From positions 1 through 36,706 of the forward strand of contig JAAYCX010000030.1 of NCBI GenBank assembly GCA_012729555.1: a stretch of DNA of 36,706 bases. Reading direction: 5' to 3'. The notes below the pieces were generated by a model. That model did no database searches and was not told where the DNA came from. It saw only the letters and a list, made by a program, of their open reading frames with translations. Below are positions 1 through 4,724 of this stretch, in pieces. The translations under genes and the position numbers were made by a program. The DNA is from Acidobacteriota bacterium. Lineage in GTDB: Bacteria; Acidobacteriota; UBA6911. Each line of letters begins with the position of its first letter. The first letter of the stretch is position 1.

Positions 1-40
1 AAACAAAAAGGGCCGTCATCCCGGTTCGGATGACGGCCCT
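1..40 (-). terminator. Rho-independent terminator (minus strand)
   Basis: A perfect 13-bp inverted repeat (9-21 with 28-40) encloses a 6-base loop. Read on the minus strand, it is followed by TTTTTGTTT, the usual U tract of an intrinsic terminator. Read on the plus strand there is no T run after the stem, so it serves minus-strand transcription. It lies just downstream of the small minus-strand ORF at 62-199. Its first arm also takes part in a competing hairpin with 59-73. Confidence 0.8.
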
Positions 41-73
41 GGAAGCCCAGTTTGGGTGCCATCATCCGAACCG
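22..73 (-). promoter_or_regulatory. Candidate antiterminator hairpin competing with the terminator
   Basis: Bases 59-73 are complementary to 22-36 over 15 positions in the minus-strand RNA, with one G-U pair (61 with 34). Forming this stem would use up most of the 5' arm of the terminator hairpin (28-40), so the two structures exclude each other. The loop between the arms is 37-58. The stop codon of the small ORF (62-64) lies inside the upstream arm. A ribosome finishing that ORF would block the antiterminator, and a ribosome stalled earlier would permit it. The pairing is read directly from sequence; the regulatory role is inference. Confidence 0.5.
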
Positions 74-199
74 TAAGACTCCGGTAAGGACGTTGCCGAT
101 AATGGGTACGATTCCTACAATGACGGGCAGAGAAGTATTTTGCGAAGTATCAAAGCTGAGACTGCTCGGATGGCTATAATTCCGGCCGGATGCTCCCAT
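62..199 (-). CDS. Candidate 45-residue leader peptide or small membrane peptide
   Basis: This minus-strand ORF runs from ATG at 199 to TGA at 62-64 and encodes 45 residues. The N-terminal half is polar (Ser/Asn rich). Residues 24-45 are strongly hydrophobic, with 12 of 22 being Ile, Val or Leu (for example PVIVGIVPIIGNVL). The Shine-Dalgarno sequence is only a G run about 9 bases upstream. A minus-strand promoter lies at 249-278 and a terminator follows directly at 1-40, with an alternative hairpin around the stop codon. Two readings are possible: a regulatory leader peptide sensing branched-chain amino acids for a gene beyond the left edge, or a small membrane peptide with its own terminator. 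I do not recognise a family. Confidence 0.35.
   Translation of the reverse strand: MGASGRNYSHPSSLSFDTSQNTSLPVIVGIVPIIGNVLTGVLRFG
175..180 (+). promoter_or_regulatory. Possible -10 box for the radical SAM gene
   Basis: A perfect TATAAT lies at 175-180, but no convincing -35 is found 16-18 bp upstream. A transcript from here would start near 187 and reach the radical SAM gene at 374. A second, weaker -10-like TATCAT sits near 321-326. Either could drive the downstream gene. Confidence 0.25.
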
Positions 200-248
200 G
201 TCTGACCCCGTCGACCGCTCCCCCCGACATCGGGGAAAGCCGTCTGAT

Positions 249-278
249 AGCGTATCAAGGCGGATTCTTTTGTGTCAA
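249..278 (-). promoter_or_regulatory. Promoter for the leader RNA (minus strand)
   Basis: A perfect TTGACA (278-273) is followed after 18 bp by TACGCT (254-249). The -35 is excellent and the -10 is weak. The start site would be near 242, giving a leader RNA of about 240 nt that carries the small ORF, the alternative hairpins and the terminator. A short hairpin (222-235, CCCCGA arms) lies in the 5' part. Confidence 0.4.
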
Positions 279-373: not shown

Positions 374-1249
374 ATGGCGCATTCAGAAACAACCTCCCGA
401 AGATTGGCGGAGGCGCACCGGAGCCACGAGCGGCGCTGGCGGGACAACCGGTATGTCTACGGTGTCGTCTCCCGGAGAAGCCGCGGCCTCTCGATCGGGA
501 TCAACCTCAACCCCGGCCGGGAGTGCGACTTCGATTGCGTGTATTGCCAGGTGGACCGCCGGGGCTCCCGCCCGCCCGGGGTCGATTTCGCGCTGCTCGA
601 GCGGGAGCTGGACGGCATCCTGCGGGCGGAGCGGGACGGGTCGCTCTACGCCGATCCCCCCTTCTCCCTCCTCGACGCGGCCGAACGGGGGGTTCGGGAC
701 CTGGCCTTTTCGGGGGACGGGGAGCCGACCCTGCACCCCCGGCTCGCGGAGGCGGTGCGCATCGCGGCCGCCGCGCGCACGCGCTTCGGGCTCGACGCCG
801 CCCGGCTCGTGCTGCTGACCAACGCCGGGCGGCTCGACCGGCCGGACGTCGGCGCGGCGCTCGCCGCACTCTACGCCCATGGCGGCGAGGTATGGGCCAA
901 GCTCGATGCGGGTTTCGAAGCCTGGTTCCGGCGGGTGAACCGGGCGCGCGCGCCGCTGGGGCGCGTTCTCGAAAACATCCTCGGCGCCGCCCGGGACCGG
1001 CCGCTCGTGATCCAGTCGCTCTGGATGCGGCTGGGGAGCGCCGGGCCCCCTCCCGGGGAGATCGAGGCCTGGTGCGGGCGGATCGGGGACATCGTCGCGG
1101 GAGGGGGGCGGATCCGCGCCGTCCACCTCTATACCGTCGCCCGGAGCCCGGCGGACAGGGCCGTCTCCCCGCTCGGTCCGCGCGATCTCGAAGCGATCGC
1201 GGCCGTGCTCCGGGCCTCGGTTCCCGTCACCGTGGAAATCTTCCCCTGA
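374..1249 (+). CDS. Radical SAM protein, TYW1/COG0731-like
   Basis: A 291-residue radical SAM enzyme with the cluster motif CX3CX2C (C51, C55, C58) in the context GINLNPGRECDFDCVYC, followed by FSGDGEPTLHP. This combination is typical of the bacterial COG0731 group, named after the tRNA wyosine-type enzyme TYW1. The substrate of the bacterial members is unclear, so I do not assign a reaction. The ATG at 374 is preferred over the longer in-frame start at 272, because the extra 34 residues are arginine-rich and lack family features. A purine-rich AGGCGGG precedes the chosen start. The gene ends 3 bp before the convergent lipoprotein gene. Confidence 0.8.
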   Translation: MAHSETTSRRLAEAHRSHERRWRDNRYVYGVVSRRSRGLSIGINLNPGRECDFDCVYCQVDRRGSRPPGVDFALLERELDGILRAERDGSLYADPPFSLLDAAERGVRDLAFSGDGEPTLHPRLAEAVRIAAAARTRFGLDAARLVLLTNAGRLDRPDVGAALAALYAHGGEVWAKLDAGFEAWFRRVNRARAPLGRVLENILGAARDRPLVIQSLWMRLGSAGPPPGEIEAWCGRIGDIVAGGGRIRAVHLYTVARSPADRAVSPLGPRDLEAIAAVLRASVPVTVEIFP

Positions 1250-1892: not shown

Positions 1893-4724
1893 TCAGCCGG
1901 CCACGATGTTGACGAGTTTTCCGGGGATGGCGATCACCTTGCGGACCGTCGCCCCCTCGAGGTGTTTCCGGATCCTGGGATCGGCGAGCGCGGCCTCCTG
2001 CACCTGCTCGCGGCTCGCCCCGGCGTCGACCGAAATCCTCCCGCGGACCTTCCCGTTGATCTGCACGGGCATGTCCAGGACGCTCTCCTCGGTATACTTC
2101 GGATCGAAGGAGGGCCAGGGGGCGCAGGCCAGCGAGTCCTCGTGTCCCAGCGCCCGCCACAGTTCCTCGGCGACGTGGGGGGCCATGGGTGCGAGCATGA
2201 GCACGTAGCTTTCCATGCACTCCAGCGGCCGGGTTTTCTGGCCCGTGAAAAAGTTGACGAACTCCATCAGCCGGCTGATGGCGGTGTTGAAGCTGAGGCT
2301 TTCCATGTCCTGCGTCACGGCCCGGATCGTCTTGTGCAGCATGCGCAGCTGCTCTTCGGCCGGTGCGGCGCCGGGGCGCACGCTTTCGTTCGGCCGCACC
2401 GCCTCGGCGTCCTCGTCGATCATCATGCGCCAGGAGCGGTTGAGAAAGCGGCTGATCCCCTCCACCCCCTGCATGCTCCAGGGCTTGGTCGATTCGAGCG
2501 GTCCCATGAACATCTCGTAAAGGCGGGTGGTGTCGCTCCCGTACTTCCCGATCGGCACGTCCACGGGGATGACGTTGCCGCGCGACTTGGACATCTTCTC
2601 GGTCTCTCCGGCGAGTGCCTCCCCGGTCTCGGCGTGGAACGCCTTCCCCTCCTCGAACCGGATCTGGCGGTAGGGCACGATCCTCCCCGCGGAGTTGCGG
2701 TAGGTCACCGAAAGGATCATGCCCTGGTTGACCAGCCTCCGGAACGGCTCCATGGTGGAGACATGCCCGCGGTCGAACAGCACCTTGTGCCAGAAGCGCG
2801 AATAGAGCAGGTGCAGGACGGCGTGTTCCGCCCCCCCCACGTACAGGTCCACCGGCATCCAGTAGCGCTCGCGTTCGGGGTCCCAGGCCCGTTCGCTGTT
2901 TTTGGGATCGCAGAAGCGGAGGTAGTACCAGCAGGAGCCGGCCCATTGCGGCATGGTGTTGGTCTCGCGCAGGTACTCCCTGCCGTCGCGCGTCACCCGC
3001 ATCCACCCGACCGCCTTCTCCAGGGGGCCTCCGGGCTTGCCGGTGGGTTTGAAGTCCTCCATTTCGGGGAGCAGGACCGGGAGTTCACCGGGCGCGACCG
3101 CCCGGGTGAGGCCGTTGGGCCTCCCATCGGCGTCCAGTTCGTGGAGGACGGGGATCGGTTCCCCCCAGTAGCGCTGCCGGCTGAAGAGCCAGTCGCGCAG
3201 CCGGGTCTTCACCGCGGCGCGCCCGAGGCCCCCCCGCGTCAGCCAGGCGGTGATGGCCGGCTTCGCCTTGGCCGTGGGAACCCCGTCGAGCGAGATTTCG
3301 GCGTTGGCCGACTGCATGCCGGGGCCGTCGCCCGCGTAGGCCTCGGGCAGATCCCCCACCCTTTCCCGGTAGGTTCCGCCGTTCAGGGCGCCGGTCTCCC
3401 CCCTGGCCTCCATGAGCTTCAGCCACTCCGCCGGGGGCGCCACCACGGCGCGGACGGGGAGCGCGAACTTCCGGGCGAATTCGAGATCGCGCTGGTCGTG
3501 GGCCGGCACCGCCATGATGGCTCCGGTCCCGTAGCTGGAGAGGACGTAATCGGCGATCCACACCGGGATGCGCTCACGGTTGACGGGGTTGGTGGCGTAG
3601 CCGCCGGTGAAGACGCCGGTTTTCTCGCCGCGTCCCGCAACGCGGTCCTCCTCGCTGGTCGCCGCCGTCCTGGCGCGGTACTCCTCTATCTCCCCGCGCC
3701 GCCCGTCGACCGTCACCCGGTCGACCAGCGGGTGTTCCGGGGCCAGGACCATGTAGGTGGCCCCGAAGAGGGTGTCGGGCCGCGTCGTGTAGACGCGGAT
3801 GGTGTCCGGCTCCGGTTCCCCCGGAAATCCCGACTGGGCCCGGGCCTCCCGCCAGCGGTCGAAATCCTCCTCCGCGCCGAGGTGGAAGTCGACCTCCGCC
3901 CCTTCGCTGCGCCCCACCCAGTTCTTCTGCATCTCCTTGATGGCGGCGGGCCATTCGAGCGTCTCCAGGTCCTCCACCAGCCGGTCCGCGTACGCGGTGA
4001 TGCGCAGCATCCACTGGCGCAGCAGCACGCGCTCCACGGGATGGTTCCCCCGTTCGGACCTCCCGTTGATGACCTCCTCGTCCGCGAGCACCGTGCCGAG
4101 CGCGGCGCACCAGTTCACGGGGGATTCGGCCTGGTAAGCCAGCCGGAAGGAGTCCCGGTACCGGCGAACCGCCTCTTCCCCCTGCGCCGCCACCGGTTCC
4201 GGGATCGGCAGCTCCTCGATGGGGCGCCCCCGGCCGCGCCGGCGGCGGCCGGCGGGGTCGGTCCACTCCCGATCGGGATCGAACCAGGTATCGAAGAGCA
4301 GGAGGAAGATCCACTGGGTCCAGCGCACGTATCCGGGGTCGGTCGTACTCAGTTCACGGTCCCAGTCGTAGCTGAAGCCGAGCTGCTTGATCTGCCGGCG
4401 GATATTGGCGATGTTCTTGTCGGTGGTGACTGCCGGATGCGTCCCCGTCTCGATGGCGTACTGCTCGGCGGGGAGGCCGAAGGCGTCGTATCCCATCGGG
4501 TGCAGCACGTTGTAGCCCCGCATGCGCTTGTAGCGGCAATACATGTCGGTGGCGCTGTAGCCCTCGGGGTGCCCCACGTGGAGCCCTTCCCCGGAAGGGT
4601 AGGGGAACATGTCGAGCACGTACAGCTTCGGCCTGGAGCCGTCGTCGGCCGCCCGGAAGGTCCTGTTTTCCTCCCAGTACCGCTGCCATCGGGCCTCTAT
4701 CTCATGAGGTTCGTAAACCGGCAT
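1893..4724 (-). CDS. leuS: Leucyl-tRNA synthetase
   Basis: A class I aminoacyl-tRNA synthetase of 943 residues that charges tRNA-Leu with leucine in the cytoplasm. The HIGH motif is HVGH (49-52) and the KMSKS loop is intact at about 710-714. The editing domain is recognisable by [19 protein letters not shown]. The protein is longer than E. coli LeuS (860 residues). Part of the excess is an Arg/Pro/Glu-rich insertion at about 155-190, before [11 protein letters not shown], reminiscent of the long LeuS forms of Bacteroidetes-type lineages. The start has a GGAGGTG Shine-Dalgarno. It forms an operon with the lipoprotein gene downstream. The leader is only about 20 nt, so no T-box can be present. 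Confidence 0.97.

Follow-up and report, generated by a model that had tools for sequence, protein, structure and literature searches.

A probable branched-chain leader-peptide attenuator in front of ilvNB in Acidobacteriota

The window—the whole stretch of 36,706 nucleotides of an Acidobacteriota genome that was analysed—starts at the very edge of its contig, and the question raised by this locus is what the RNA elements crowded on the minus strand of positions 1–278 would control to the left of that edge. The first-pass annotation, made from the letters of the stretch, had proposed a leader-peptide attenuator obeying the logic of branched-chain amino-acid control. The results given below indicate that the locus is very probably a classical ribosome-mediated (leader-peptide) transcription attenuator controlling an ilvNB operon, an assignment based on sequence and comparison, i.e. 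on the open reading frame (ORF), three helices, their mutual exclusion, the U tract, conservation and the genes downstream.

Leader architecture

The elements of the leader, listed in the order of the minus strand, are as follows:

273–278, minus strand: −35 element TTGACA, read from the sequence
249–254, minus strand: −10-like element TACGCT, read from the sequence, with a spacer of 18 nt
62–199, minus strand: leader-peptide ORF MGASGRNYSHPSSLSFDTSQNTSLPVIVGIVPIIGNVLTGVLRFG, 45 codons plus TGA (ATG at 199, TGA at 64–62)
86–127, minus strand: putative leader control region PVIVGIVPIIGNVL, rich in Ile/Val/Leu codons
82–92, minus strand: segment 1 (protector), 92–88 pairing with 67–63 and 85–82 with 73–70, from the fold
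59–73, minus strand: segment 2 CGGTTCGGATGATGG, containing the Arg-Phe-Gly codons followed by the TGA stop; its partner is segment 1 or segment 3
22–40, minus strand: segment 3, with 36–22 pairing with segment 2 (antiterminator) and 40–28 with segment 4 (terminator)
9–21, minus strand: segment 4, the 3′ arm of the intrinsic terminator, pairing with 40–28
1–9, minus strand: U tract TTTTTGTTT, read from the sequence, with TTTTT at 9–5 after the terminator arms

All the helices of a classical attenuator—1:2, 2:3 and 3:4—are present. The antiterminator (2:3) pairs 73–59 with 36–22 at 15 of 15 positions, including one G-U, and is mutually exclusive with the terminator (3:4), and the protector hairpin (1:2) overlaps the end of the ORF. 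Ile, Val and Leu account for 12 of the final 22 codons of that ORF, the Shine-Dalgarno sequence of which is weak in the window's genome. Transcription probably starts near 242 on the minus strand, and the stretch 86–127 would, by its position, supply the control codons.

Most of this anatomy had been anticipated in the first-pass annotation: the TTGACA promoter, the 45-codon ORF with its 12 branched-chain codons, both pairings, the U tract and the placement of the stop codon inside the first arm were all recovered. Its scheme of two hairpins stands as regards both hairpins, their mutual exclusion and the direction of control, but it had missed the protector hairpin (92–82/73–63).

Downstream genes and conservation in relatives

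Concerning the gene to the left of position 1, an overlap with a second contig of the same genome leads to ilvN and then ilvB, both in the right orientation, an outcome that the earlier reading had named as support. The relevant features are:

1–127, no strand assigned: identical, as the reverse complement, to the beginning of contig C70, by sequence match
L003:164–730, outside the window, orientation as the leader: ilvN, with its ATG 37 nt beyond window position 1
L003:746–2584, outside the window, orientation as the leader: ilvB, directly after ilvN in gene order
374–1249, plus strand: divergent radical-SAM gene (PF04055), the leader sitting between it and ilvN

Window positions 1–127 match C70:1–127 (genome G000) and no other place in the genome, and C70 continues leftwards, in the minus-strand sense, into ilvN, ilvB and then a thiol peroxidase gene. 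An exact overlap of 127 bases between C70 and the window's contig (C30) is what is expected of neighbours in an assembly graph. Both genes were also subjected to a Pfam search; ilvN scored 180 bits against TIGR00119 (cut-off 56.9) and ilvB 654 bits against TIGR00118 (cut-off 538). The two genes encode the subunits of acetolactate synthase, a key enzyme of branched-chain amino-acid synthesis; the amino acids of the leader fit the pathway of the downstream operon, and the intrinsic terminator precedes its first structural gene, ilvN. It should be noted that the link to these genes in the window's own genome is a contig overlap, not a single contig; in the relatives L031–L039 the arrangement lies on one unbroken contig. 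In L031, the sequence runs without a contig break from the divergent radical-SAM gene, starting at the matching place 5′ of the leader, through the leader to ilvN, which supports the C30–C70 join. The window also carries leuS, encoding leucyl-tRNA synthetase (1896–4724, minus strand), on the leader's strand about 1.7 kb upstream; it is cut off from the attenuator by the divergent radical-SAM gene and lies outside the operon.

The comparison covered ten distinct genomes, all of them metagenome-assembled genomes of Acidobacteriota, namely that of the window and L031–L039 (loci L005–L013 being duplicates of the latter, not extra genomes). The leader stands directly 5′ of ilvN in the window's genome and in the nine relatives, which all keep the promoter, the Ile/Val/Leu-rich leader ORF, the terminator and the U tract, the last as a T-rich tract after the terminator. 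In most relatives the promoter consists of TTGACA and a TAxGCT-like −10 element (TACGCT, TAGGCT or TAAGCT) at a matching position. The orthologous leader ORFs of the nine relatives comprise 30–42 codons, versus 45 in the window's genome, with lengths varying by whole codons, and 8–13 of the last 22 residues are Ile, Val or Leu across the ten leaders. All ten peptides end in Arg-Phe-Gly-stop, CGGTTCGGATGA in segment 2 is invariant in the ten sequences, and the Val (91–89) and Leu (88–86) codons, which coincide with the first part of segment 1, are Ile/Val-Leu in each of them. The outcomes that would have spoken against the earlier reading—a convergent or unrelated gene on the left, or loss of the paired segments and of the Ile/Val/Leu codons—were thus not seen, and branched-chain attenuation is the reading to which the ilvNB genes and the nine relatives point.

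Among the five leaders of equal length, comparisons at Ile/Val/Leu positions gave the same residue in 106 cases, a swap within the trio in 42 and another residue in 24. Substitutions over the first, second and third codon positions of these leaders (89, 83 and 102) are nearly even, so the protein sequence of the leader appears only weakly constrained, and what seems to be kept is the branched-chain codon content rather than the exact protein. This bears on the possibility that the ORF encodes a functional small hydrophobic (membrane) protein, with the terminator merely limiting its operon. The stretch of some 20 residues, most of them hydrophobic, would suit such a protein, but besides the initiating Met, a single Val and a single Leu, invariance is limited to Arg-Phe-Gly, i.e. 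to the codons of segment 2; together with the even spread of substitutions and the range of 30–45 codons, this makes a membrane protein very unlikely.

The pairing of the three helices, counted per cell on the ten-sequence alignment, amounts to 97.8% for 1:2, 92.7% for 2:3 and 93.8% for 3:4, versus 14–63% for the slid versions of the helices used as a control. Helix 2:3 has one mismatch, at the position of A65, in seven of the ten genomes. Two pairs of helix 3:4 are altered on both sides, with a covariation score matched by 3 of 500 shuffles; no both-side changes of pairs were found in helices 1:2 and 2:3 among the ten genomes. Segments 1 and 2 hardly vary within this set, which keeps the covariation modest.

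These results leave hardly any room for an ordinary, non-regulatory intrinsic terminator or REP-like palindrome that happens to lie beside a chance ORF. It is true that a strong hairpin with a U tract is common by itself and that the hairpin half matches the leader model on the opposite strand, too; however, the gene just upstream is the divergent radical-SAM gene, so that no minus-strand gene ends there, and the three helices with the in-frame, Ile/Val/Leu-rich ORF are found immediately 5′ of ilvN in ten genomes. Moreover, shuffling did not reproduce the combination seen in the real window, namely an Ile/Val/Leu-rich ORF together with a terminator, one arm of which is complementary to a segment that contains a stop codon: there was no case among 150 dinucleotide-shuffled copies of the window, read on both strands and containing 147 terminator-like sites, and none among 3000 leader shuffles.

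T-boxes and riboswitches control branched-chain genes in other phyla, and a tRNA-sensing T-box or a metabolite riboswitch could, on that general ground, drive the terminator with the ORF being incidental. Such an element is nonetheless scarcely credible here: no Rfam family, T-box included, matched the window or four relatives at gathering or relaxed thresholds (cmscan, run at the gathering threshold and again with E values of up to 10 allowed, produced chance matches below the cut-offs only), and conservation is centred on the end of the ORF, the three helices and the Ile/Val/Leu codons, in leaders whose lengths change codon by codon.

Proposed mode of action

From the anatomy described above and from established knowledge of attenuation, we infer the transcription start, the translation of the leader, the stalling and the direction of control. 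RNA polymerase would start near 242 on the minus strand and be followed by a ribosome translating the 45-codon leader. With ample charged Ile, Val and Leu tRNAs, the ribosome would reach the UGA at 64–62 and cover segment 2, in which case segments 3 and 4 would form the terminator and the transcript would end after about 240 nt. With these tRNAs scarce, it would stall among the Ile/Val/Leu codons, with the greatest effect near 103–86, masking segment 1 and leaving segment 2 free for segment 3; the 2:3 helix thus formed would permit read-through into ilvN and ilvB. A ribosome extends about 12–14 nt past its A site, so that one stalled at the Val-Leu codons (91–86) would stop just short of segment 2 (73–59). 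In the case of no translation, pairing 1:2 together with the terminator 3:4 would bring transcription to an end.

Related leaders and known systems

A covariance model (R1) built from the leader was searched against 38 genomes of the class. The ilvNB leader turned up in nine members of the window's genus, counting the window's own genome, and in one other genus of the family. The weaker matches within the genus belong mostly to a second attenuator type, positioned 5′ of the citramalate synthase gene (cimA; 657–685 bits against TIGR00977 in the two checked):

L134/L152, G000:C15 about 73403–73518: Ile-rich leader and terminator 5′ of cimA in the window's genome
L124, L125, L126, L127, L137, L146–L151 and L153: Ile-rich leader and terminator 5′ of cimA in related genomes

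These leaders, exemplified by MAQRTITHIGIAIIIITGVSPGG and, on contig C15 of the window's genome, by ...MNHPDRTAVTGIAIISITGGTPGG, end in Pro/Ala-Gly-Gly-stop, and their Ile codons fit, since citramalate synthase serves the synthesis of Ile. The upstream regions of leuA and ilvC in the same genomes, taken as negative controls, contained no Ile/Val/Leu leader with a terminator. Two further R1 matches (L128 and L130), in each of which a terminator appears to follow a tRNA-like sequence, were rejected as regulatory elements.

Leaders of other kinds were also observed in other families of the class and of the phylum. In another family of the class, leaders rich in Phe, Tyr and Trp (MSLARNFYFFYWWHKKKNCPPV) with a terminator (L121:1476–1631 and L122, match 1501–1616 on the minus strand) precede chorismate mutase and DAHP synthase genes and represent a likely aromatic attenuator. 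Leu/Ile/Val-rich leaders (MNSLLLLNINLLLVLIVLIIGLRG...) with a terminator precede ilvD-ilvB, likewise in another family of the class (L214:1200–1360 and L217:979–1140, in operon orientation), Val-rich ones lie 5′ of a prephenate-dehydratase-like gene (L221, L225 and L229), and a branched-chain-rich one lies 5′ of ilvB (L230), the gene names in these loci coming from sequence inspection only. In L221, ilvB follows the prephenate-dehydratase-like gene, an unusual grouping of aromatic and branched-chain genes. A short Cys-rich frame of uncertain start (..ICPICSCCCTTMMPGTSG; L227:1370–1605), found 5′ of a terminator and of siroheme-synthase-like genes named, again, by inspection only, is a possible cysteine attenuator. 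Four other matches in the phylum (L222, L223, L224 and L228) lack a matching leader and were taken as chance matches to the terminator half. A scan combining regular expressions with folding detected Ile/Val/Leu leaders in five of 25 ilvB loci of the phylum, one of them a known relative of the present leader (L255), and gave no match in 246 kb of control sequence.

With regard to known systems, the enteric ilvGMEDA and ilvBN attenuators share with the present leader an Ile/Val/Leu-rich peptide, the protector, antiterminator and terminator helices and a branched-chain operon downstream. The Acidobacteriota leader differs from them in its own peptide and RNA sequence, in the order ilvN-ilvB, in its host and in a segment 2 that bears the invariant Arg-Phe-Gly-stop codons. 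Leader-peptide attenuators of proteobacteria were reportedly the subject of a comparative survey by Vitreschak in 2004, as cited in PMC1262725.

Leader peptides with terminators are also known upstream of actinobacterial ilvB (PMC1262725), and the Corynebacterium ilvB-II and the ilvB-OMG motifs have been read as likely uORF attenuators (PMC10272879). The actinobacterial leaders and the ilvB-II motif resemble the present one in that a uORF rich in branched-chain codons overlaps or precedes a terminator before acetolactate synthase genes, the sequence relation of the actinobacterial leaders having been compared through Rfam only. The ilvB-OMG motif, occurring in various phyla (PMC10272879), likewise sits before ilvB; no Rfam family matched the leader here. 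The mechanism in Actinobacteria is less clear, since altering codons of the ilvB leader had no effect in Streptomyces coelicolor (PMC1262725).

According to a survey from 2010, a function had been assigned to almost none of the predicted attenuators of Acidobacteria; leader-peptide systems were then known from Proteobacteria and Actinobacteria only, and that survey added one in Firmicutes (PMC2965389). Our literature search found no description of a branched-chain leader from Acidobacteriota, an earlier prediction being possible in the 2010 comparative survey of Lopatovskaya et al.

Leader-peptide attenuation may be general for amino-acid synthesis in Acidobacteriota, with leaders matched in amino acid to the genes behind them: ilvNB and cimA (the latter Ile only), but also prephenate-dehydratase/ilv genes, aromatic genes and those for cysteine/siroheme. 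Within this clade, the attenuators of ilvNB and cimA may even share one ancestor retuned from Ile/Val/Leu to Ile—a proposal made tentatively, and one against which we lean slightly. As to the locus itself, it shows that a downstream gene missing beyond the end of a contig can be identified in advance by reading the raw sequence. One attenuator of Acidobacteriota has now been given a likely function, and the model of its leader leads to more; the mechanism would be the textbook one, in the setting of a poorly studied phylum.
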